From assembly GCA_016788865.1 (NCBI GenBank), contig JAEUSB010000050.1, positions 1 through 64,000 of the forward strand: 64,000 bases of DNA. The letters are read 5' to 3'. Source of the DNA: Leptospirales bacterium. GTDB taxonomy: Bacteria > Spirochaetota > Leptospiria > Leptospirales > Leptonemataceae. Positions 47,505-62,324 of this stretch are shown one piece after another (the first letter of the stretch is position 1; each line of letters begins with the position of its first letter). The notes below the pieces were generated by a model that searched no databases, had not been told where the DNA came from, and saw only the letters and a list, made by a program, of their open reading frames with translations. A program made the position numbers and the translations under genes.

Positions 47505-47547
47505 TGCCTAAAGATTTTTCCCGGCGCGACGATCCTAAGAAGGTCTT

Positions 47548-48600
47548 ATGCGAATCGCAGCTCTTTCCTGGATTCTATTCACCGCGCTATTGCCCCAGAT
47601 TACCTGGGCGGCCGGTGAGCCAATCCTTTTCATCTTCGATGCCTCCGGTTCGATGTCCGAACCTTTCCATGGTGTATCGAAAATGACCGCGGCACGCTTG
47701 ATGTTGTCGGAGCAGGTGGGACGACTGCCAATTGGAACGCGCGTAGGTCTCGTAGCATACGGCAATGGCATTGCTGGTTGTGAATCGTATCGTCTTTATA
47801 GTCCCATTGCCCGGTCCTCGACAGGGGCAATTCCAGAGGTGGTCAGAAAGCTAAAGCCTAGCGGTGAGACCCCGATCGCTTCAACGTTGCGCCAGGTGGG
47901 CAAAGTCATACTTGCAAAAGAGACAAATGCGCGTGTGGTTCTCATCTCAGACGGAAAGGAGTCCTGCCAGGGCGATCCCGCGATTGAAGCCGCGCTGCTC
48001 CGGGCTAAAGGTATCTCCGTTTTCGTAATTGGTCTGGGCGTTGACCCGCTCACAGCTGCGGAGTTGGAGCGAATCGCTGGTTCCGGTGGTGGCAAGTATT
48101 TCAATGTTCAGACCAACACGGACTTCGTCTATGCAATCGAACAGAGCACTCAGACTCCAGTAGCAGGTCCTGGTCGGAAAGGGGAATGGGATGATTCGGA
48201 TAGCCGGATCGTAACTGCCGAACCCAGGGACGAGAAGAAGACTGAGAATGTTCCCGAAGCCATAGCGCCAGGAAAGGACGGCCTGCTCCTAAAAGGGCAC
48301 CGCCTGTCGCGGACGGAAGAAGGACGAACAAAGCTGGAAATTGATTATGCCTTTAGGTGGGCACCGTCTGCCGATTACCTGGTGTCACTTCGAGTTGAGC
48401 GAATCTTTCCTGGCGGCAGCGTGCCGATTGGAGTTGGCCCGGAGACACACTTCCGCGCTCAGAATGGCAATGGGACAATCGTGATTGAACTTGACCCCGG
48501 CCAGGTGTCGGGCGAGTCTCTCTTCATTCAGGGAGAGCTGTGGGATATCCAACAAATGCCCGTTCGCGCATGTCAGTCAAACATACTTCGCGTCAAATAG
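47548..48600 (+). CDS. Secreted VWA-domain protein
   Basis: 350 residues: a signal peptide (MRIAALSWILFTALLPQITWA, cleavage after WAA or TWA), then a VWA domain with intact MIDAS DASGSMSE, Thr in GETPIAST and ISDGKES. A C-terminal beta domain of about 120 residues follows (ends GELWDIQQMPVRACQSN). It acts in the periplasm or at the surface, probably as a metal-dependent adhesion or assembly factor. It overlaps the giant exported protein gene by 31 bp, so the two are coupled. Confidence 0.82.
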   Translation: MRIAALSWILFTALLPQITWAAGEPILFIFDASGSMSEPFHGVSKMTAARLMLSEQVGRLPIGTRVGLVAYGNGIAGCESYRLYSPIARSSTGAIPEVVRKLKPSGETPIASTLRQVGKVILAKETNARVVLISDGKESCQGDPAIEAALLRAKGISVFVIGLGVDPLTAAELERIAGSGGGKYFNVQTNTDFVYAIEQSTQTPVAGPGRKGEWDDSDSRIVTAEPRDEKKTENVPEAIAPGKDGLLLKGHRLSRTEEGRTKLEIDYAFRWAPSADYLVSLRVERIFPGGSVPIGVGPETHFRAQNGNGTIVIELDPGQVSGESLFIQGELWDIQQMPVRACQSNILRVK

Positions 48601-51600
48601 TCCTCTGCGCAATCATTCTACTGACTTTACTCACGCTGCATTCGCTCCAGGCGCAACCTGATGCGCGCAGCAATGTCCAGACTGGTCCGCATGAAAGTTG
48701 GTCTGACCTTGATTCACAAGAATCCCGGGTCTATGGAAGCGAGAAAGAACGGAAATACCCGATCAACGCGTTCATTGTAGAAAAGGAAGAATGGGAGGAT
48801 CATTACTCATTTCACTTTCTCTGGCTATATCGCAATACAGACTACCCAAAGTACAGATCTCGCGCCTTGCTTCCGTTCTACTACCATCTGGAAAGCAAGA
48901 TAGATAATCGCGAACGTAGCGTATACTTTCCATTTTACCTCGGGCAGAAGGACGCCGATACAACGTTCCATCTGACACCATTAACGTTATTCGACGATTC
49001 AGAAAGTTCAGGCTGGTTTCATTTGTACGGCTGGCTTTTTCTAAGACGCGGGGACTCTCGCGCTTCACATACGGCGCTGTTGCCACTGTTCTTTACAGGC
49101 TCCGGAACTGACGAGTTTTACGCGTCTGTACTGCCCCTCTTCTACTATGAGAGATCGGCCTCCGACAGTTACAAATCTCGATCGCTAATCACGCCTGTTC
49201 TGTATGCAAGCGGCTCAGATTCCAGTGATCGATCGGAATCATTCTCGATATCTCCGCTACACATCCACAACTTCTCCTCCTATAAGGAGACCGGAAGTAC
49301 AATCAACGATGGATACATCGGTTTTCCATTTATTCCCCTGGCCTACTATTCCAGTTGGAATGGGGATACTTCCCACCACAAGATACTGACACTCATCGAC
49401 TGGAAGAGCAATTCAAACGGCTTGAGCCGATTCTATGTTTTTCCGCTGATTTTCTACGGCAGCGACTACTTAGTGGCTGCGCCAATCTATTTCCGGTTTG
49501 GTGATCCAGGATCAGAATCGATAACTCGATTTGTTCCTGGAATTTTCTACTGGGACAAGGAAGGCAAGGACCAACACGTGAACATCCTGGGTCTGGTCGA
49601 TCTTGGCTATGGCGAGAAGGGTTTGGAGCGAACCTGGGTCTTGCCCTTTGTATTTCGTGAGGCCGAGTATTTTCACCTTGCGCCCTTCTACTTCAGCAGC
49701 TGGAGCACTAACGATAAGCAAGAGACGACTGAGACCTACCGCATGGGTCCCGTCTACTACTGGCACACGTCTGAAACGGATCAAATCCGCGAGCGTCTAA
49801 TTGGTCCCGTCTGGTGGTCGTCTAACGGCAATAGATCCAGTTCGTTTCACATATTTCCGTTTTCCTTCTATTGGAAATCTCCGGCCCGAGATGAGGACCT
49901 TGGTCGATCATCCTTTGCGGCTAATCCGCTGTTCGTGCATTCCCAGGAATATGCTGGCATGAATGACCAGCTTGAATTCTCCGACTTGTTTTGGGCTCCA
50001 ATTCTGCCCCTTTACTATTCACATCAGACAGAGATAAAATCCAGACGGCATTTACTCCTTGCGAACTGGAGCACGGACGTTTCAGGAATCAGTCAATTCT
50101 GGTTTATCCCATTCTATTTCTGGCGTCAGGGCAAGGCAATGGGCTATCTGTATATACCTCCGTTCTATATCCGTCCATCGGGTCCCAATGTTGACGAGGG
50201 CTTCTCACTGGGTCTGATTCACTACCACAGCTGGTCGCCGGAGCATGACAAGCTCTGGCTTCTATTATACTACAAGGACATTCAAGCCAGTGAACAGTAT
50301 ATGCATGTGGTTCCGTTTTACTATTCGTGGCATACTCAGGAAACAACAGGTCAGTTGGCTTTCCCACTCTGGCTTGAGTATGAGGATAAGCAAAAGGCGT
50401 GGTCGATTAACCTGGCAGGTATTTCGAAAAGCAGGGCAGCCGGCGTGGTGGGAAGTCGGGTTGGGACAAAAGAGGGTCGTTGGTACCTGGACACAGAAGT
50501 TTCATGGCTCTACAATGCTTTCAGCGCATCCGCTCGGGTCTCAATGCCTGGAAAATCGACCAAGCCGGAAACGGAAGTAACGTTAGCCGACCTTAAGGAT
50601 ACAGGAATTAGAGACATTGCCGAACAAGAGCAAAAGAAGCCTTCCCTGGCCGGTGTTCCCAGACTTACAAGAAAGTTGAATGTTTCAAGGGACGAGACAT
50701 TCTACTACTGGGGATTCAGCGTTCTCTATGGCGTGCTTTCGTATCAGCACGCAGACTCCAATCGGCATTTTCGTTTGCTTCCATTCGCCTGGCTTTCGTG
50801 GGACACGCAGAGTGATGACAAAGTGACCGTCATTCCCGGCGCCTACCTTGACTATCACTCGGAAGACACCGATTACTTCGCACTTTTCCCGGCATTCATC
50901 CCAATCTATGGGAAGCAGCGAGTAGGAAAGAGCTACATCGAAGCGTACGGTGTTTTTCTGGGCATCAATGAGTACGACGATCAGACAAAAAGGAAAGAGC
51001 TCTCAGTGCTCTGGCCTCTGGCCAATTTCTATTCTTCACCAGAGGAAGAAGGGTCGCGCGTGATACCAGTCTACTGGAATCGGCTTACGCGTCGAGATGG
51101 GATTGTTGAGAAGACTACGTTCAGTCTCCTACACTTTCGAGGTAGCACGGAGTCAAAGTCCGCCAATGATTCTTTCTGGGTAGCTCCGCTATTTCTTCCG
51201 ATCTTCTTGAAATCAAACAACGAAACGCAGACGCAGAAAGGAATGTGGACAGCCTTACTCCCGTTCTTCTATTTCTCGTCCGATGAAACACCTGCTGATG
51301 GGAGAAGCGAACTTACGTTCGCGTCTCTGCCGGGAATCTACTACAATCGAGACAAAAAGGAAGACGGTGGCAAGGTTACCGGCAGGAGCACGCTTTTCGT
51401 ACTGGGATATTACTCATCCGGCAATCTTGAGGATTCTAGTTTGAGTGTTCTTTTTGGTCTTTACAAATCGCACTCGTCAAGCGACGAAGAATACAGGCAG
51501 CTCCTATGGGGATTGTACGCCAGCGACTCTACTTCGGAGTCCGCCCGCCGCTGGCTTATTCCGTTCTACTATCAGCGCAACAACAAGACCAACCCGAACG

Positions 51601-52409
51601 ATGGGACCTTCTACCTGTTCCCGTACTACTCCTCCACGTCCGGGGATGAAACGTCAATGCACCTGGTACCGTTTGTGTTTTCATGGCGCGACACCACGAG
51701 TTGGAGCGCATTCATAACTGGACTGTATCTTACTTCTTCGCCCACCTACAGTCGCCAGAACTTCATGTACCTTTTGGATCACGTTAGGTCCAATGACACG
51801 CATCATTACAGGGCTCTCCTGGGAGCTGTTCACCTGGAAAGTGCGCCACAATACTCGGAGTCTGATCTCCTTTATGGTTCGCTGGTGAATGTACGTTCGA
51901 ATCCAGCAGACTCTGAATTTGATCTGGATTACCTGCTCTATCTTGGCAGTGTTGAGAGGAACAAGACCTACCTCCATCATCGCCTATTGCCTGCGTACTG
52001 GTATGAGTCGGAACCGGGACTTACGTTTCTTGTTACCCCACTCGGGTATTACAAAAACGACACGAATAACAATATCTTCAGAACAATGCTCCCAATCGTC
52101 CCGGTGGTCTGGTATCACAGCGACGTCGGGCAGGATACCTTTCAGCTCGGTCTGCTGGGAACTGCCTGGTATCGGAACTTCGAATCGGCAGAAAGAAGCG
52201 ACCGATTCATGCTCCTGGGTGGAATTCTGTATAACGAAGTTCAGCGACCGGAGCGCGGTTACAGGTCCAGGGGAAGTCTCTGGGGACTCATCTGGGATTA
52301 CGAGACGGAATCGAATGGATTTTCCAAATTCTCGATCCTGAAATTTGTGTACAGCCGCACAAGCGATGAAGATGGAGTTAGAACAAGGATTCTTGGTATC
52401 TCCATCTAA
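48570..52409 (+). CDS. Giant exported protein made of aromatic beta repeats
   Basis: 1279 residues from ATG 48570 (MSVKHTSRQIVLC), with a signal peptide (hydrophobic 10-25, cleavage after LQAQ). The mature protein is repetitive. More than 25 times a short strand of the form (hydrophobic)-P-(hydrophobic)-(F/Y/W)-(Y/F) is followed by a Ser/Asp/Gly-rich turn. Examples are LLPFYYHLE, YFPFYLGQK, VLPLFYYERS, FIPFYFWRQG, VVPFYYSWH, LLPFFYFSSDE, LIPFYYQRNN and LVPFVFSWRD, at spacings of roughly 20-45 residues. Tyr, Trp, Phe and Ser are very frequent and Cys is almost absent. This looks like a large beta structure (barrel or solenoid) in the outer membrane or periplasm. No named family is recognised. 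Confidence 0.75.
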   Translation: MSVKHTSRQIVLCAIILLTLLTLHSLQAQPDARSNVQTGPHESWSDLDSQESRVYGSEKERKYPINAFIVEKEEWEDHYSFHFLWLYRNTDYPKYRSRALLPFYYHLESKIDNRERSVYFPFYLGQKDADTTFHLTPLTLFDDSESSGWFHLYGWLFLRRGDSRASHTALLPLFFTGSGTDEFYASVLPLFYYERSASDSYKSRSLITPVLYASGSDSSDRSESFSISPLHIHNFSSYKETGSTINDGYIGFPFIPLAYYSSWNGDTSHHKILTLIDWKSNSNGLSRFYVFPLIFYGSDYLVAAPIYFRFGDPGSESITRFVPGIFYWDKEGKDQHVNILGLVDLGYGEKGLERTWVLPFVFREAEYFHLAPFYFSSWSTNDKQETTETYRMGPVYYWHTSETDQIRERLIGPVWWSSNGNRSSSFHIFPFSFYWKSPARDEDLGRSSFAANPLFVHSQEYAGMNDQLEFSDLFWAPILPLYYSHQTEIKSRRHLLLANWSTDVSGISQFWFIPFYFWRQGKAMGYLYIPPFYIRPSGPNVDEGFSLGLIHYHSWSPEHDKLWLLLYYKDIQASEQYMHVVPFYYSWHTQETTGQLAFPLWLEYEDKQKAWSINLAGISKSRAAGVVGSRVGTKEGRWYLDTEVSWLYNAFSASARVSMPGKSTKPETEVTLADLKDTGIRDIAEQEQKKPSLAGVPRLTRKLNVSRDETFYYWGFSVLYGVLSYQHADSNRHFRLLPFAWLSWDTQSDDKVTVIPGAYLDYHSEDTDYFALFPAFIPIYGKQRVGKSYIEAYGVFLGINEYDDQTKRKELSVLWPLANFYSSPEEEGSRVIPVYWNRLTRRDGIVEKTTFSLLHFRGSTESKSANDSFWVAPLFLPIFLKSNNETQTQKGMWTALLPFFYFSSDETPADGRSELTFASLPGIYYNRDKKEDGGKVTGRSTLFVLGYYSSGNLEDSSLSVLFGLYKSHSSSDEEYRQLLWGLYASDSTSESARRWLIPFYYQRNNKTNPNDGTFYLFPYYSSTSGDETSMHLVPFVFSWRDTTSWSAFITGLYLTSSPTYSRQNFMYLLDHVRSNDTHHYRALLGAVHLESAPQYSESDLLYGSLVNVRSNPADSEFDLDYLLYLGSVERNKTYLHHRLLPAYWYESEPGLTFLVTPLGYYKNDTNNNIFRTMLPIVPVVWYHSDVGQDTFQLGLLGTAWYRNFESAERSDRFMLLGGILYNEVQRPERGYRSRGSLWGLIWDYETESNGFSKFSILKFVYSRTSDEDGVRTRILGISI

Positions 52410-54304
52410 TGCAACACCGTGTTCTATCGCTTTCGTCCGCGGCGTTGCTTCGCCTGAATCTGGCAATCCGACTCAGGCCTTTGCAAGAAAGCATCCTTGC
52501 CTCCGCCAGTGCCCTATTCGCGATTTTCCCGATTGAAATCATCAGGATTCTACGGTCCGGATTCTTTCTGGAGGATGTCCTTTTCGCCGCAGAAATATTT
52601 GTTGTTACAGCCCTGGTTGCCGGGCTCTGCCTCCAACTTGTGTTCTTCTTAATCAGACTGTTAAGCAGTCTCTTACTGCGATTCCAGCAAATGCTCCCGG
52701 GATTGTTGCCCGGGTTTGCAGTATTCTTTCTGCTGCAGCCACTAGCCGAAAGCGTTGTGATAAGTTTTTTCCATGCCAGCATTCATCCCGGCTTCGTCTG
52801 GGCCGCGACACTTGGGCTTGGGCTTGCCCTCGGTACACCTCTGCTCTTCCTGTTTCCTGACCTGCGGGGTGAAAATAGTCCACTGGTTCTTTTTGCTGTC
52901 ATTGGAGCGCGGCTGGTCGCCTACATTTACGAAGTTGGATCAAGTCTCGAGGATGAGATATTCTCTCTGTTGCGGGTGGTGTGCCTGGCTTCCATCCTGT
53001 ACTTGTGGCTGCAGATTCGTCGCCGGTCCTTCCGATCACCGCATTATTCACCGTTTTATGTAAGCGGGAAACTGCGCTTAGCCCTTGGGCTTATTGCAAC
53101 GCTGTTGTATTCGGCATTGATTGTGCTTTCTTTAGTTCCCGTTGTTAAGACCGAGTTTGTGATTTTCGTTGTATTGTTTCTGCTTATTGTCTGGCAAATA
53201 ACCGCGGCATTCATGGTCCGAGCCCTCCACGGAGCCTCAATGATCAGTTCGGGATTCCTCGCTTTGCTTACAATTGCGGCGATTGCAGGGAGCATTGACC
53301 TCTATCTGCGGTACCCCGAAGCTGCGCCATCAACATCGGCGCGGCTTCTTAACGTTAATTCTTTCGCCGGTCGGGTTGTATTGAACACCGGAGTGCTACT
53401 GGATAGAGACAACGACGGAAACTCGTCATGGCCGGGCGGCGATCCCAACGATTCTGATCCATGTGTGCGAAGAGATGGCCTGAACCCTTGTAAACGATCC
53501 ACGCAGGTCGACGTAGCCTCACCTCCGGGCCAGCGTTTTATGGTAATAACCTTGCAGGGTAATCTTTCGAATTTTCCAAAGTTGCCCGATGGTTATACGG
53601 AACGTGCAATTTTTATGGCTTCTGAGCAAGTGGACCAGGCTCTGGTAGCTTTATGGTCGGGAGTGGATGGATACGGTGCAGTCCACAGAAGGCCTGACAT
53701 TTCACTGCTCGCCAGTATTTCCGAATATGGTTTTCGAACTATTTGTGTCGATCTTTCCAATGCCGCCTATCTGCAGGCGGGTTCAGCCGTGGGTCTTGAT
53801 CACGGGTGTCAGGTGTTTTTACGCGCGCAAAATTTTTCTGAAGCTCAAAGTGCCATTGCAAAATACCAGGAAAAGCGTTCCACAGTCTGGATCCATGCCG
53901 ATTTGTCGCGCGGCGACTCGACACTGATGCAGGCGATTCTCAATCCGGCAAAAGACCGGCTCCTTGCGTTATACAACCCCGCAATGATTCTGATGAACCC
54001 GGAAACGCAGACGATTCTCTTGCGCGCGCCCCGAAAGATCGAAGGACCTCCATTTCAGAACGGAGCAATACCTGCACTTTACACCGGCGTAATACCTCCG
54101 GCCGATCCTGTTGATGTACGCGCCGTTCCGGAAATGGCTCCGCCAGCTATGATACGGATCCTTGGTCTCGATTCGCGCCGATTCTTTTTGAGCATTCGTT
54201 ACAAACGCAAAGAATCTCGGGATGAATACTTCCGCCAGACAAGCGAGAGTCTGAGCGGCGCTACCTGGATTTCAGACGCGTTTGAGAGCGTCTTGCAACG
54301 CTAA
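52409..54304 (+). CDS. Polytopic membrane protein with degenerate sulfatase-like periplasmic domain
   Basis: 631 residues; the ATG overlaps the previous stop by one base (TAATG). About eight to nine membrane helices fill residues 1-300. A stretch LLDRDNDGNSSWPGGDPNDS follows, then DPC and LNPC; this strongly resembles the DxDxDG linker that precedes the catalytic domain in some membrane sulfatases (where it reads roughly DRDGDGYS...GGDCDD). The following 280 residues are probably a periplasmic domain, but the sulfatase Cys/Ser nucleophile signature (CxPxR) and metal residues are not visible. I read it as an enzyme-like domain that has lost catalysis, or an unrelated domain behind the linker. 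It ends exactly at the stop of the convergent glgX. Confidence 0.6.
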   Translation: MQHRVLSLSSAALLRLNLAIRLRPLQESILASASALFAIFPIEIIRILRSGFFLEDVLFAAEIFVVTALVAGLCLQLVFFLIRLLSSLLLRFQQMLPGLLPGFAVFFLLQPLAESVVISFFHASIHPGFVWAATLGLGLALGTPLLFLFPDLRGENSPLVLFAVIGARLVAYIYEVGSSLEDEIFSLLRVVCLASILYLWLQIRRRSFRSPHYSPFYVSGKLRLALGLIATLLYSALIVLSLVPVVKTEFVIFVVLFLLIVWQITAAFMVRALHGASMISSGFLALLTIAAIAGSIDLYLRYPEAAPSTSARLLNVNSFAGRVVLNTGVLLDRDNDGNSSWPGGDPNDSDPCVRRDGLNPCKRSTQVDVASPPGQRFMVITLQGNLSNFPKLPDGYTERAIFMASEQVDQALVALWSGVDGYGAVHRRPDISLLASISEYGFRTICVDLSNAAYLQAGSAVGLDHGCQVFLRAQNFSEAQSAIAKYQEKRSTVWIHADLSRGDSTLMQAILNPAKDRLLALYNPAMILMNPETQTILLRAPRKIEGPPFQNGAIPALYTGVIPPADPVDVRAVPEMAPPAMIRILGLDSRRFFLSIRYKRKESRDEYFRQTSESLSGATWISDAFESVLQR

Positions 54305-56482: not shown

Positions 56483-57130
56483 ATGGCCGCTTCACAGCAA
56501 TTACTGGTACGCTGGATCGATCAGGATGCTCGCCATCGCCTCCGCACCGTCTTTGAGGACCTTGAAACCAGCCTCAAGATCGATGGGATCGGTGTGGTGC
56601 TAACAACTGCAGTTCTGGAACTGGTGGAGAACGCGGTGAAGGCAAATCTGAAACGGGCGTTCTTCAATCGAGAAGGCTTCAAGTTTGATGATCCTGATAG
56701 CTATTCCAAAGGTATCCAGCAGTTTGTGAAATCGTACGGTGACATTCAACAGGGTCACTACAGTGAGGCGCTGAGTCAGCTCGATCTACTTGTGTCCGTC
56801 CAGGTGGACTATGATGAAAATCGCCTTCTCGTTTTCGTTGAGAACAACGCAGTGCTGCTCTCACAAGAAGAAAGACGAATTCGAAATCAACTCGGCGCTG
56901 CAATGACTTCCGACAAGCTCTCTGAATTCTACGTTCAATACGGAGACGAAACTGAGGGCAGCGGTCTTGGACTTGCCATGATCGTAATCTTGATTCGCAA
57001 TCTGGGTTTCGAAGCCGAGAATTTTCGGGTCTTTCAGAAGGATGGCCGGACTGTTGCTCGCCTTGAGTTTCCGCTCAACGCGGACTATGTTCCGATCCGT
57101 GAACGCTGGCGTCGTGAACATCAGAGCTGA
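56483..57130 (+). CDS. Stand-alone histidine-kinase-like ATPase, possible partner-switch component
   Basis: A 215-residue GHKL/HATPase protein without a phosphoacceptor or sensor domain. ELVENAVKANLKR is the N-box, ENNAVLL the loop, and EGSGLGLAMIVILIRNLGF the G-box. It is paralogous to the N-terminal part of the HDOD protein at 3303-4790. Stand-alone ATPases of this fold often act as anti-sigma or Ser kinase factors in partner switching with SpoIIE phosphatases; the neighbouring gene encodes such a phosphatase. Its 3' end overlaps the giant's 3' end by 56 bp, tail-to-tail. Confidence 0.75.
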   Translation: MAASQQLLVRWIDQDARHRLRTVFEDLETSLKIDGIGVVLTTAVLELVENAVKANLKRAFFNREGFKFDDPDSYSKGIQQFVKSYGDIQQGHYSEALSQLDLLVSVQVDYDENRLLVFVENNAVLLSQEERRIRNQLGAAMTSDKLSEFYVQYGDETEGSGLGLAMIVILIRNLGFEAENFRVFQKDGRTVARLEFPLNADYVPIRERWRREHQS

Positions 57131-60100
57131 TTCTATTGGCAAACGGACTCACAGTCACAGAAATAATTGAAAAATCATCTGTAAGGCAATCAGCGGAATC
57201 CAGGAAGCGATAGATCGTTTCCGGATCGCCGTTACATTCTTCCACGATTTGCAAGAATCGATCCGGGTCTTCGTTCAAAGTTGTATGGCCCTGATCATCG
57301 GTCACAATAACGTCATCACGGCCATCGGATGCCGCGATGAGCCTGTCGTCCCTTTCCAGGATTATTTTGTGAACATCAATTCGCTCGGGTGTGCTGCGCA
57401 TGCCGATTCGCAGATGCACGGGCTGATTCAAGAAAGTGGCTCTACCATTGCGATACAGCACGCCTTGCGGATGATCGGCGTTAATTGAAAATAGAATCCC
57501 AGAGTGTTCCTCAATCAATCCAATGAAAGCGGATACCATCATGTAGCCGTTGAAACTGCGGAAGACCTCATTCAAGTCAACATAGCAGGAACGCAGCCAT
57601 TCTTCGGGATCTGTGGCTTCGTCGGTCGATGCAATGATGGATTCGAAAACGGCACCAAATACGAGCGCTCCGCCCGCGCCCTGCATCGATTTGCCCATGG
57701 CGTCCGCGTTTGTTACAGCCAGGTAATGCTGGCCACGAAGGCGAATACTTCGCGCAATGCAGATGTCTCCTCCGAGCTGTTCATCCCAACGCATATAGTG
57801 GAACTTCTTCTTCTGGGAAACGAAGTACTGAATAGAGAGTTTTGTTTCGGGCGCGCGGATCCCGCTGAGTGGTTGCAGCAGCAAAGAAGTGAGGTAGTAG
57901 TCCATGTCCTGAGACATTTTGAGTTCATGGATCTGTCCCAGGGATTTTTCCAGCTCGCGCGTGCGCTCAAGCACGCGGCTCTCTAGATTGGTGTAGAGGT
58001 TCGAGTTCTCGAGCGAAACTGCGAATTGAGCAGATAACACGGAAAGAATTTCCAACCGTTCTTCATTAAAAACGCCGGTTGCCAGATCGTTCTCAAGATA
58101 AATGATTCCGGCAATCCTGCCCTTAAGCAGGACGGGCGTGCAGAGCACCGAGCGTACTGGTCGCTCATCGGCTCCAATCTCAAAAAGTTCCTCCTTGCTG
58201 GCGTCTCCAATTACAACATTCTCGCGAGTTCGCATTACATGGCGAATAACGGACATGGGGGGGAAGGGTTTTGCCCCGGGCTGCTCATGAACTACATCGA
58301 TGATAATGGACGACTCGGTCCGGCCTGTTGCTGCAACGCATAGATGTCCGTCATGATCGTGAAGATAGGCGATCCGTCGTGCTCCTGCCTGAATCATCAT
58401 TAATTCCAGAACCCGTTCGATTAGCCTGACCTGTACGATCTCGCTTGAGATAGCGATTGCCGTCCGCGTGATGGCGCGCAAATCCATTGTACCCATTGCA
58501 TCTGAGCCCGGTGCGTTCATCTCGCTCAGAAATGGGAATTCGTTTCGGAGGATTTGAATCTTACGGTCCGCGCCCCACTGGCCATAGTAGTAATGCGCGT
58601 CCCGCATATATCGCTCTGAGGCTTCTGAAACTCCAATGCGCTGCGTTAGCCGTCCGGCGAGCTCGGATGCGATTGCTCTGGTCAGAGAATCATCCTCCTC
58701 GGTGGCTGCCCGAATGGCGCTGCTGTAGTGCGAAAGTGCCAGTCCACTCTCCTTGAGAGCCAATGTTTCGGCCAGAAGCAAATTGTAGCGGGCCTGAAAA
58801 TGCGTGCCGGGAGTCTTCGCGTACTTTGCATGCTGTTTCAGAATCCATTTCAGTCTGCGTTCATCGTAATCGGTACCCATATTCATTAACTGACACAGGG
58901 CCAGTCCTTCAAAGAATAGCGCAGCGGGTCCTATCACGAGGGGCAGTGCAGGTTTGATAATCCGTCTGAGGCTTTTTGCATGCAAGATTGCCTCATTTGG
59001 ATTTCTTAGCAAGTAGGCGTTCCTGATTTTCAGGAAGTAATACCAGCAAAGCGTCACTGGATTTCCGGTCTGCATTTGTTCGAAGTGACTATCCTCTCGG
59101 TACGACGAATCGGAAAAACTGGAATCGCTGAAAGTCTTCCCGCGCAACTGGCAGCTGGCCTGGATTGAAAGAATAAAATCTCCCTCGACGTCATGATCGC
59201 CTGTGCGCTCGGTAAATCTGAGGAAACTGGCTGCTTGCCGGTCACATTCTTGCAGCGAGTCGCCCCGAATTCCAGAGGCAAAGATGCGATTTGCAAGAGC
59301 GTAGCCGGCGTAAACGAGATCGCCGGTTTCTAAGCCGTCGCGAAAAGCCCGTCTCAAGTAGGTGACGTTTTTTGAAATGGATCCATCCCAGTGATTTATG
59401 AATGCACCAAACACTACCCCAAGCTTTGAACGCAGAGCGATGTTGTCGAATCGGTCATTCAACTCAAGGGCGGTCTTTCCAAATTGGGCGGCCTCGGAGT
59501 AATTGCCGAAAGCATCAATGAGGAGAACAGCATAGGTCATGAATGCGTAAGCGGAAACTTTGCTATTCCCGTACTTCAGCGACATTCCCGTCATCCTGAG
59601 TACAATAAGTCCAAATAGATTCTGGTTGATAAAGAAGGCGCACGGTGTAATGGCAAGCAACAGGTCCATTGCGGCTAAGAGACGTGGATCTTTCATTTGA
59701 GGTTTGTTCAAAATATCATGGATTTGCATGCCGCGGCGCTGAAGCTTCACGCGAACAATTTCGAACAGGACCCTGGGTAAGGAAGGTTTGAGTGGAAGGT
59801 TCACATCAATCATCTTGAGCCCTTGTAGGCCTATCTTGATTGCCTCTGCGTGACGGCCCATGTTGGTGTACAGGACCACCAGTTGTTCGTAGATACGGAC
59901 CAGCTCCAGGGTGTTCTTCGTTTCTTTGCGGAGAATCCGAAATAGTTCCTCGGCACGTTCATAATGACCGTTTAGATACTCGTTTTCAAGCGCTTCGCGG
60001 TAGATAGCGTATGTTAGATCGTATTCTTCCGCCCATGAGTTGGCTCCCAGGAACCCGATGGCGGCGAGGCTGTTCTCGAGGGCCACGTCCCAGGAGGCAT

Positions 60101-62324
60101 TCAAGCGTGCGGAGTGAGCGGCGCGAAGGCAGTAACTTGCTGCCTCGTACCGGTTTTTGTCGGACGTGATCAGGCTTTGGGCCTTGATAAGGTGCTCTAC
60201 AAGTGTAAATATAGAATCTGGAGTGGAAAAGGCGGCTGGCTTTAGAAACGTTGCGGCGTCGAGGTGGAATTGTGCGCGAACAGGCGGGCTGCTCAGTTGA
60301 TAGGATGTGTGTTGGACTCGATCGTGTATGAACGAATAACTCAAATCCTGAACGCTTCCGGGTCGTGCTTCCGCAATCAGGATGCCTTCATTGATGGCCG
60401 ACGACAGGCCCTCTTCAAGCAGTGCGGGGGAAAGCCTGGACACGTGGGCGAGAAGTTCAAAACCAAACTGATTTCCCAGACATCCTGCAGCAGCCAGCAC
60501 CGTTCTTGTATTTTCTCCCAGCGCGTCGATCTTCCTCGCGAGGAAGTCGGAGAGATTTACACTTTCGCTCAATTCGCGAAGCCGTGACTCGTTCCAGAGC
60601 CACCGAGCCGCGCCTTCATCGAAGTACAGGGTACCCTCATTGTGAAGCGAGTGCAACAGTTGGGTCACATAAAGGGGATTTCCCTCCGTCTGCAGATAGA
60701 TGCTTTCAGTGAGGGAGAGGACTCCCCTGGGCGAAAGCATCAGGCTATCGGCACACATGGCCGCAACGTCGTTTCTGTTCAAGGGTTGCAGCGTTATCTG
60801 CTCAAACGCCTTCTGTTTCCTCAAATCGCTTAAAGCAGCCGCGAAGCTGGACAGATCCTCGGACCCAGAGTCTCGGCTGGTCAGAAGAATCAACATGCCT
60901 TCTGTATCTGTAGCAATGGCCAGAGTTTTGATGAGATCAAGTGATGCCGTATCAGCCCATTGCAGGTCATCCAGAGACAGAATCAGCGGTCGGTCCTGAT
61001 TGGAGAAGACAGTCAGGAAACCCAGGAACGCTTCCATGAAACGGTTGCGAGACTCCACGGCCCCCAGTTCGACAACCGGTGTAGCCTGCCCGGTCCATTT
61101 CTGAAGTTCGGGTATCGCGGCTGCGATGAGAGGTAGATTTGATCCCAGTCTGTCTTTGAGCTTCTTAACCAGCTCAGGAATCTCGCCTGGGGCCTCCACC
61201 TCGGTTCGCGCAATCAGGGCTCGGCAAGTACTGATCCAGGCGCGAAACGGCGTATGACGTTCGAACTGTTCAAACTTTCCCCTCGCAAAGGCAGCGGAGG
61301 CTAGCGAAAGGGATTTCTGGAGTTCGTCAATTAGTGCGGTCTTGCCTATCCCTGGGGCACCTGATATAAGGACAATGCGAATGCTGCCGCGCGCTACATC
61401 CTCAAACGCGCTCCTGAGCAATGAGAGTTCCTTGTCACGACCGTAACACTTTTCCGAGATTTGCAGCCTCGCTGAAACGTCGCGTAGCCCTGGCTCAAAA
61501 TCCACGATGCTTGCTTTTCGCTCCATCTCGGAAAGGCATCGGTTGATATCTTCAAGAAGCCCTGCCGCAGACTGATAACGATCCTCAGCACTCTTTGCGC
61601 AGAGCTTACTCAAAATCTTCCCGACTACAACCGGAACGTCCGTCCTATCGAGTGGGGGAATTTGTCTGGCAATGTGATTGTGTGTCCAATCAGCAGGACT
61701 TTTCCCATGGAAGGGCTTTCTACCTGCGAGAAGTTCATACAAGAGTATCCCCAGGCTATAAAGGTCAGCCCGGTGGTCCACGCTTCGGTTCAAGCGACCG
61801 GTTTGCTCGGGCGCCATGTATGCATAGTTCTGCGAAACGGAACTCTTTTCAATTTCGCGATTCAATCGCGAAAGGCGCGAAGCCCAGGTCAGGTCCAGGA
61901 AGAGACATTTGCGAACCGACTCGTCGTAGACAATGGTTGCCGGGTTGATACAGCGATGAATTATGCTGGCATTGTGGAGCATGCTGATTGCGCGCGTAAG
62001 TGCAGCGGCAATTCTTAAAAAACGGACGGGAGCGAGCGGGGCGACTGCTATGTCGCTTAGAATCACGCCTTGAGGTTTTGCAAAAATCAAAACATTTCCA
62101 CGCCGATCCGACCTGGATTCAATGAAACGCGGAAAACAGTCCAATGGTGTTTTGAATAGTTGAAGTTCGACGTTCAGTCGGCGCTGCTCGGCGGGACCTG
62201 GATACTCGTGGCGCGGATATTTTACCAGGACCGGCGCGCGAGTTTCGACAAGAAATCCTTCTTGTATGATTGCGCTTTCCAGCTCCGCAAAAGTGGATCC
62301 AGTGATAATTCCTTCTAAATTCAG
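57075..62324 (-). CDS. Giant pseudokinase-AAA-TPR-GAF-SpoIIE phosphatase
   Basis: About 1749 residues if read from CTG 62324. Domain order: a Ser/Thr kinase-like domain (1-260), AAA_16 ATPase with Walker A GAPGIGKT (322-329), and a long helical TPR-like region (about 700-1200). A GAF domain (about 1265-1440), a short coiled coil (LESRVLERTRELEKSLGQI) and a SpoIIE/PP2C phosphatase end follow. The phosphatase has LGGDICIA, NADAMGKSM, AASDGRDD and LTDDFSI, with acidic metal residues present. The kinase N-lobe (VLVKYPRHEYP, Lys35) lies upstream of the first TTG (62144), so the start must be non-standard. CTG 62324 has GGGAG 7 nt before it. The kinase active site is degenerate: HRD is HRC, the catalytic Asn is Thr, DFG is DLT. 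It is probably a cytoplasmic signal integrator. Confidence 0.82.
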   Translation of the reverse strand: MNLEGIITGSTFAELESAIIQEGFLVETRAPVLVKYPRHEYPGPAEQRRLNVELQLFKTPLDCFPRFIESRSDRRGNVLIFAKPQGVILSDIAVAPLAPVRFLRIAAALTRAISMLHNASIIHRCINPATIVYDESVRKCLFLDLTWASRLSRLNREIEKSSVSQNYAYMAPEQTGRLNRSVDHRADLYSLGILLYELLAGRKPFHGKSPADWTHNHIARQIPPLDRTDVPVVVGKILSKLCAKSAEDRYQSAAGLLEDINRCLSEMERKASIVDFEPGLRDVSARLQISEKCYGRDKELSLLRSAFEDVARGSIRIVLISGAPGIGKTALIDELQKSLSLASAAFARGKFEQFERHTPFRAWISTCRALIARTEVEAPGEIPELVKKLKDRLGSNLPLIAAAIPELQKWTGQATPVVELGAVESRNRFMEAFLGFLTVFSNQDRPLILSLDDLQWADTASLDLIKTLAIATDTEGMLILLTSRDSGSEDLSSFAAALSDLRKQKAFEQITLQPLNRNDVAAMCADSLMLSPRGVLSLTESIYLQTEGNPLYVTQLLHSLHNEGTLYFDEGAARWLWNESRLRELSESVNLSDFLARKIDALGENTRTVLAAAGCLGNQFGFELLAHVSRLSPALLEEGLSSAINEGILIAEARPGSVQDLSYSFIHDRVQHTSYQLSSPPVRAQFHLDAATFLKPAAFSTPDSIFTLVEHLIKAQSLITSDKNRYEAASYCLRAAHSARLNASWDVALENSLAAIGFLGANSWAEEYDLTYAIYREALENEYLNGHYERAEELFRILRKETKNTLELVRIYEQLVVLYTNMGRHAEAIKIGLQGLKMIDVNLPLKPSLPRVLFEIVRVKLQRRGMQIHDILNKPQMKDPRLLAAMDLLLAITPCAFFINQNLFGLIVLRMTGMSLKYGNSKVSAYAFMTYAVLLIDAFGNYSEAAQFGKTALELNDRFDNIALRSKLGVVFGAFINHWDGSISKNVTYLRRAFRDGLETGDLVYAGYALANRIFASGIRGDSLQECDRQAASFLRFTERTGDHDVEGDFILSIQASCQLRGKTFSDSSFSDSSYREDSHFEQMQTGNPVTLCWYYFLKIRNAYLLRNPNEAILHAKSLRRIIKPALPLVIGPAALFFEGLALCQLMNMGTDYDERRLKWILKQHAKYAKTPGTHFQARYNLLLAETLALKESGLALSHYSSAIRAATEEDDSLTRAIASELAGRLTQRIGVSEASERYMRDAHYYYGQWGADRKIQILRNEFPFLSEMNAPGSDAMGTMDLRAITRTAIAISSEIVQVRLIERVLELMMIQAGARRIAYLHDHDGHLCVAATGRTESSIIIDVVHEQPGAKPFPPMSVIRHVMRTRENVVIGDASKEELFEIGADERPVRSVLCTPVLLKGRIAGIIYLENDLATGVFNEERLEILSVLSAQFAVSLENSNLYTNLESRVLERTRELEKSLGQIHELKMSQDMDYYLTSLLLQPLSGIRAPETKLSIQYFVSQKKKFHYMRWDEQLGGDICIARSIRLRGQHYLAVTNADAMGKSMQGAGGALVFGAVFESIIASTDEATDPEEWLRSCYVDLNEVFRSFNGYMMVSAFIGLIEEHSGILFSINADHPQGVLYRNGRATFLNQPVHLRIGMRSTPERIDVHKIILERDDRLIAASDGRDDVIVTDDQGHTTLNEDPDRFLQIVEECNGDPETIYRFLDSADCLTDDFSIISVTVSPFANRISSDVHDASVHGSEHSPR

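Follow-up and report, generated by a model that had tools for sequence, protein, structure and literature searches.

Three overlapping genes lie on the forward strand between positions 47548 and 54304 of the window, the whole stretch of 64,000 nucleotides that we analysed, which comes from one contig of a 4.9 Mb draft genome (G000). The first gene (47548-48600) encodes a VWA protein of 350 amino acids (P0001) with a signal peptide, a VWA domain and a conserved C-terminal domain, and has a Shine-Dalgarno-like AAGAAGG (47538-47544) 3 bases ahead of its start codon. The second (48570-52409) encodes a giant repeat protein (P0002) of 1279 amino acids if translated from the ATG at 48570; an alternative candidate start, the GTG at 48540, has AGGGAGAG just upstream and would give 1289 amino acids, lengthening the overlap with the VWA gene from 31 bp to 61 bp. 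The third gene (52409-54304) encodes a polytopic membrane protein of 631 amino acids (P0003) and overlaps the giant gene by 1 bp (TAATG). Promoter and terminator scans of the locus did no better than shuffled sequences. The original prediction had placed these three open reading frames and both overlaps (31 bp and 1 bp) correctly, and the overlaps support the co-translation that it proposed. It had also held that all three products enter or cross the membrane; since each of them carries an export or membrane signal, a role at the envelope is likely.

A secreted VWA protein with its own C-terminal domain

The VWA domain of P0001 (47623-48123) was matched by PF00092 with 54 bits against a gathering score of 23.8 (Pfam, 3e-14). 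The MIDAS residues DxSxS...T...D are intact (DASGS, GETPI, ISDG), bearing out the secreted MIDAS-type VWA protein that had been predicted, and they are kept in the homologues, except in one that is truncated by a contig end. P0001 thus resembles other VWA domain proteins in its secretion and its MIDAS-type residues, but differs from them in a conserved C-terminal domain ending in GELWxIxxVP, which is common to seven more genomes of the same family and to one genome of a neighbouring family (G024). The model of the CglB gliding adhesin (NF033757) scored 14.6 bits against a cut-off of 200, NCBIfam's remaining named VWA models stayed far below their cut-offs, and a profile search of solved structures found nothing but a mussel thread matrix protein. 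The loci L198, L199, L200, L202, L203 and L204, mostly from the neighbouring family, encode secreted VWA proteins of another kind, which carry an Asp-rich calcium-type repeat at the N-terminus; at several of these loci the next gene encodes a four-helix membrane protein or a protein of ~1010 amino acids.

The giant protein is a member of the LA_1737 family

The C-terminus of P0002 (51945-52403) was matched by the NCBIfam model NF047486, which defines the LA_1737 family, with 107.1 bits (E 8e-31, cut-off 60); a Pfam search gave no match. Members of this family are ~800-2300 amino acids long and have a common motif near the start (WxDL...YGSEKExKY) and another near the end (GSLWGxLWxYETE...KFSILKF). 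P0002 is like them in the C-terminal model match, in the N-terminal WSDL...YGSEKE, in the GSLWGxLWxYETE of its conserved C-terminus and in a periodicity of 17-20 residues, and by these sequence features it is a member of an already named family of unknown function. It differs from them in sitting inside an operon with a VWA and a membrane gene, a context found at no other examined locus. The statement of the original prediction that the trio could be matched to no described system is therefore only partly right, as the family of the giant protein already has a name and the VWA protein is of an ordinary kind. A search of the available literature found no paper that names LA_1737 in spirochaetes; its hits dealt with tomato or mosquitoes.

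Of the 393 spirochaete genomes sampled, 49 contain the LA_1737 family, whereas the 14 control genomes do not. When 84,980 species were scanned by pattern, 13 loci were found, 12 of them titled as spirochaetes and the remaining one corresponding to G013, a genome of the same family as the window. No plasmid relatives of P0002 were found. The repetitiveness ascribed to the giant protein proved significant, the spacing of hydrophobic residues at 17-20 positions giving z ~31 over 24 family members and z 7.8 for P0002 alone. Each repeat unit consists of a short segment, hydrophobic and aromatic, that is centred on a proline, with polar ends and no clear alternation of hydrophobic and polar residues; these units were picked by pattern, which biases positions -2 to +2. 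Such a repeat fits a beta meander. P0002 has a signal-peptide-like N-terminus and no further hydrophobic helix. The C-termini of the family, in which we looked for the aromatic signal of outer-membrane beta-barrels, vary and are mostly aliphatic at the end. A profile search of solved structures with P0002 returned nothing credible, and the AlphaFold prediction (1200 amino acids, 14 alignment rows, pLDDT 31) was unusable as a model.

Tandem giant LA_1737 genes occur in G007 (L102, 5182-15903; 2266 and 1284 amino acids) and in G023 (L113, 3206-13800; 2026 and 1462 amino acids), where they are followed by a beta-propeller (lactonase-like) gene. In G022, the gene directly upstream of LA_1737 (L103, 13373-14995) encodes a caspase-domain (Peptidase_C14) protein with a carboxypeptidase-regulatory-like domain.

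A membrane protein confined to one spirochaete family

The predicted polytopic nature of the third protein was confirmed by its ~9 hydrophobic helices (52490-53311), and the distribution of hydrophobicity and positive charges would fit nine helices with the N-terminus inside and the C-terminal domain outside. An Asp-rich loop, DRDNDGNSSWPGGDPNDSDPCVR (53402-53470), is kept with small changes (DxDxDGNSxWPGxDPDD) in 15 of 16 homologues and is probably a calcium-binding loop. Eight such segments, searched against Pfam at E up to 10, found no family, the MopE-type metal-binding repeat included, although queries this short make a weak test. The invariant columns of the family are D345, R443, T444, C446, D464, G466, C467, Y486 and W494. 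P0003 had no Pfam match, no credible NCBIfam match and no credible counterpart in a profile search of solved structures.

By profile search, this single-copy family is present in 19 of the 22 genomes of its spirochaete family, which we take to be Leptonemataceae, and no credible match was found outside that family among the 393 spirochaete genomes. One match, in G028, was rejected as a symporter-like transporter, to judge from its sequence. Among the 19, the copy in G020 (L214, 5622-7602) is broken by many in-frame stops, in a lineage where the family is otherwise nearly universal.

Conservation and history of the arrangement

The order VWA, giant and membrane gene is found in all three sampled genomes of the genus, the trio proteins of the two other species being roughly 35-83% identical to those of the window. 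Both of these draft genomes (G001 and G002) have a contig break within the giant gene, and contiguity is deduced from the matching contig ends. Four further genera of this family (G006, G008, G009 and G013) have the VWA gene directly next to the membrane gene and lack the giant gene at this place; LA_1737, where these genomes carry it, is located elsewhere. In G014 the two genes occur away from each other, and other genomes of the family have the membrane gene alone. In several of the family's genomes, the VWA/membrane locus lies between thioredoxin/LMW-PTP and TIM. The window trio is also flanked by LMW-PTP and TIM, the latter at some distance, and these shared neighbours indicate that it occupies the same locus. 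At ~40 LA_1737 loci outside the genus, the stretches read contained neither a VWA nor a membrane gene, and no neighbour was constant. The synteny comparison thus ran against a conserved three-part system outside the genus: LA_1737 was never found near the other two genes, which are themselves adjacent without it. As read from these genomes, the trio is a real local operon of one genus of environmental, Leptospira-like spirochaetes and not a widely conserved three-part machine.

In a phylogenetic tree, the LA_1737 copies of the genus form one clade (support 100/99), in which the operon copies of the window genome and G001 pair together and the operon copy of G002 is basal. Both the window genome and G001 have a second copy elsewhere, placed next to this pair in the tree; that of the window genome (C76:3537-9131) encodes 1864 amino acids, longer than P0002, and lies near neither a VWA nor a membrane gene. 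The simplest reading of this tree would be a single insertion of LA_1737 into the VWA/membrane locus in the ancestor of the genus, from which a copy was later duplicated to another place; the events may also have run the other way round, with a loss in G002. Between the window genome and G001, pN is 0.11-0.19 and pS 0.66-0.83 for all three genes, indicating strong purifying selection on each of them. The arrangement is more than chance, as it is kept in two other species with pN far below a near-saturated pS.

Discussion

Our analysis leads us to propose that an LA_1737 gene entered a two-gene envelope unit a single time, in the ancestor of one genus, and that the products of the resulting three-gene operon act at the envelope. 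The ancestral unit of the family would have consisted of a secreted VWA protein and a nine-helix inner-membrane protein with an external Asp-rich, Cys-bearing domain, and the LA_1737 copy would have been inserted between their genes. All three products would then reside at the cell envelope, with P0003 as a putative inner-membrane anchor, the VWA domain as a module that binds protein in a metal-dependent manner, and the giant protein as a long exported beta meander in the periplasm or outer membrane, its assembly or anchoring presumably coupled to the other two. We are confident of the operon and its history, even though they are drawn from draft genomes in which the giant gene is split by a contig break in two of three cases. 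Taken as a whole, action of the products at the envelope included, this explanation has about an even chance of being correct, and a physical cooperation of the three products is distinctly more doubtful.

The main rival is that LA_1737 was inserted by chance into an expressed locus and shares its transcription only, the giant protein and the VWA/membrane pair having unrelated roles. We consider this a serious contender, with a probability somewhat short of even, and the confinement of the insertion to one genus makes such a chance event possible. It agrees with the behaviour of LA_1737 elsewhere, where the gene often stands alone between opposite-strand genes and has no constant neighbour, with the lack of a VWA or membrane gene near the paralogue in the window genome, and with the persistence of the VWA and membrane genes without LA_1737 in four genera. 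Against it, the overlapping trio persists throughout the genus even though synonymous divergence is close to saturation, which suggests either selection for togetherness or the lack of an easy escape from the overlap.

One further form of cooperation would be a hitherto undescribed trans-envelope complex in which P0003 as a lineage-specific inner-membrane anchor and the VWA protein assemble or tether a giant LA_1737 protein of variable length, the LA_1737 proteins of other spirochaetes having other partners. We regard it as unlikely, and the division of labour that it would entail, with the VWA protein binding the giant protein and P0003 anchoring both, is a guess from operon logic.

Less likely again is that P0003 is a degenerate sulfatase or LtaS-type phosphotransferase, with an envelope polymer or the giant protein as its substrate. 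The protein resembles the sulfatase/LtaS family (PF00884) in that an outside domain follows its N-terminal helices, and the predicted order of strands and helices after its linker recalls the first half of the sulfatase fold, albeit in an AlphaFold model of very low confidence (pLDDT 36, 3 alignment rows). In hhalign comparisons with 24-32 sulfatases, the expected segment around GYRTIC was aligned with P ~0.005, but at a probability of only 6-8%, and block-shuffled controls equalled the score in 2 of 30 cases. PF00884 matched neither P0003 (E up to 1) nor ten homologues (E up to 5), and no sulfatase was found in solved structures for the family members tested. The DHG of the window protein recurs in only 4 of 16 sequences, most homologues having LDxGC, and the family conserves no catalytic nucleophile or metal ligands; the three sulfatases of the window genome are, for their part, without the Asp-rich linker. 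The label of a sulfatase-linker protein given in the original prediction is thus reduced to the conserved Asp-rich loop. Kinship of fold with the sulfatases is unproven, and an enzyme activity of P0003 appears unlikely.

That the trio is an ancestral three-part machine lost in most lineages would accord with the wide distribution of LA_1737 in the phylum, but is highly improbable given that no examined LA_1737 locus outside the genus has a VWA or membrane gene, that the P0003 family is confined to one spirochaete family (its single outside match being the symporter-like transporter) and that four other genera have the two-gene form.

Returning to our proposal of a single insertion into a two-gene unit, the unusual part of this locus consists of two separate unknowns worthy of study and not of one three-part machine. 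The first is the single-copy P0003 family, which almost every genome of one spirochaete family carries and which is absent elsewhere in the sampled phylum; the second is the widespread group of LA_1737 repeat proteins, variable in length, that spirochaetes including the Leptospiraceae encode. The genus-specific operon provides a testable hint at possible partners of the latter. Elsewhere in the window, at 56483-62144, a small HATPase gene (weak Pfam match) is convergent and overlapping with an open reading frame of 1689 amino acids whose translation looks like that of a signalling protein of the protein kinase/ATPase/phosphatase type.
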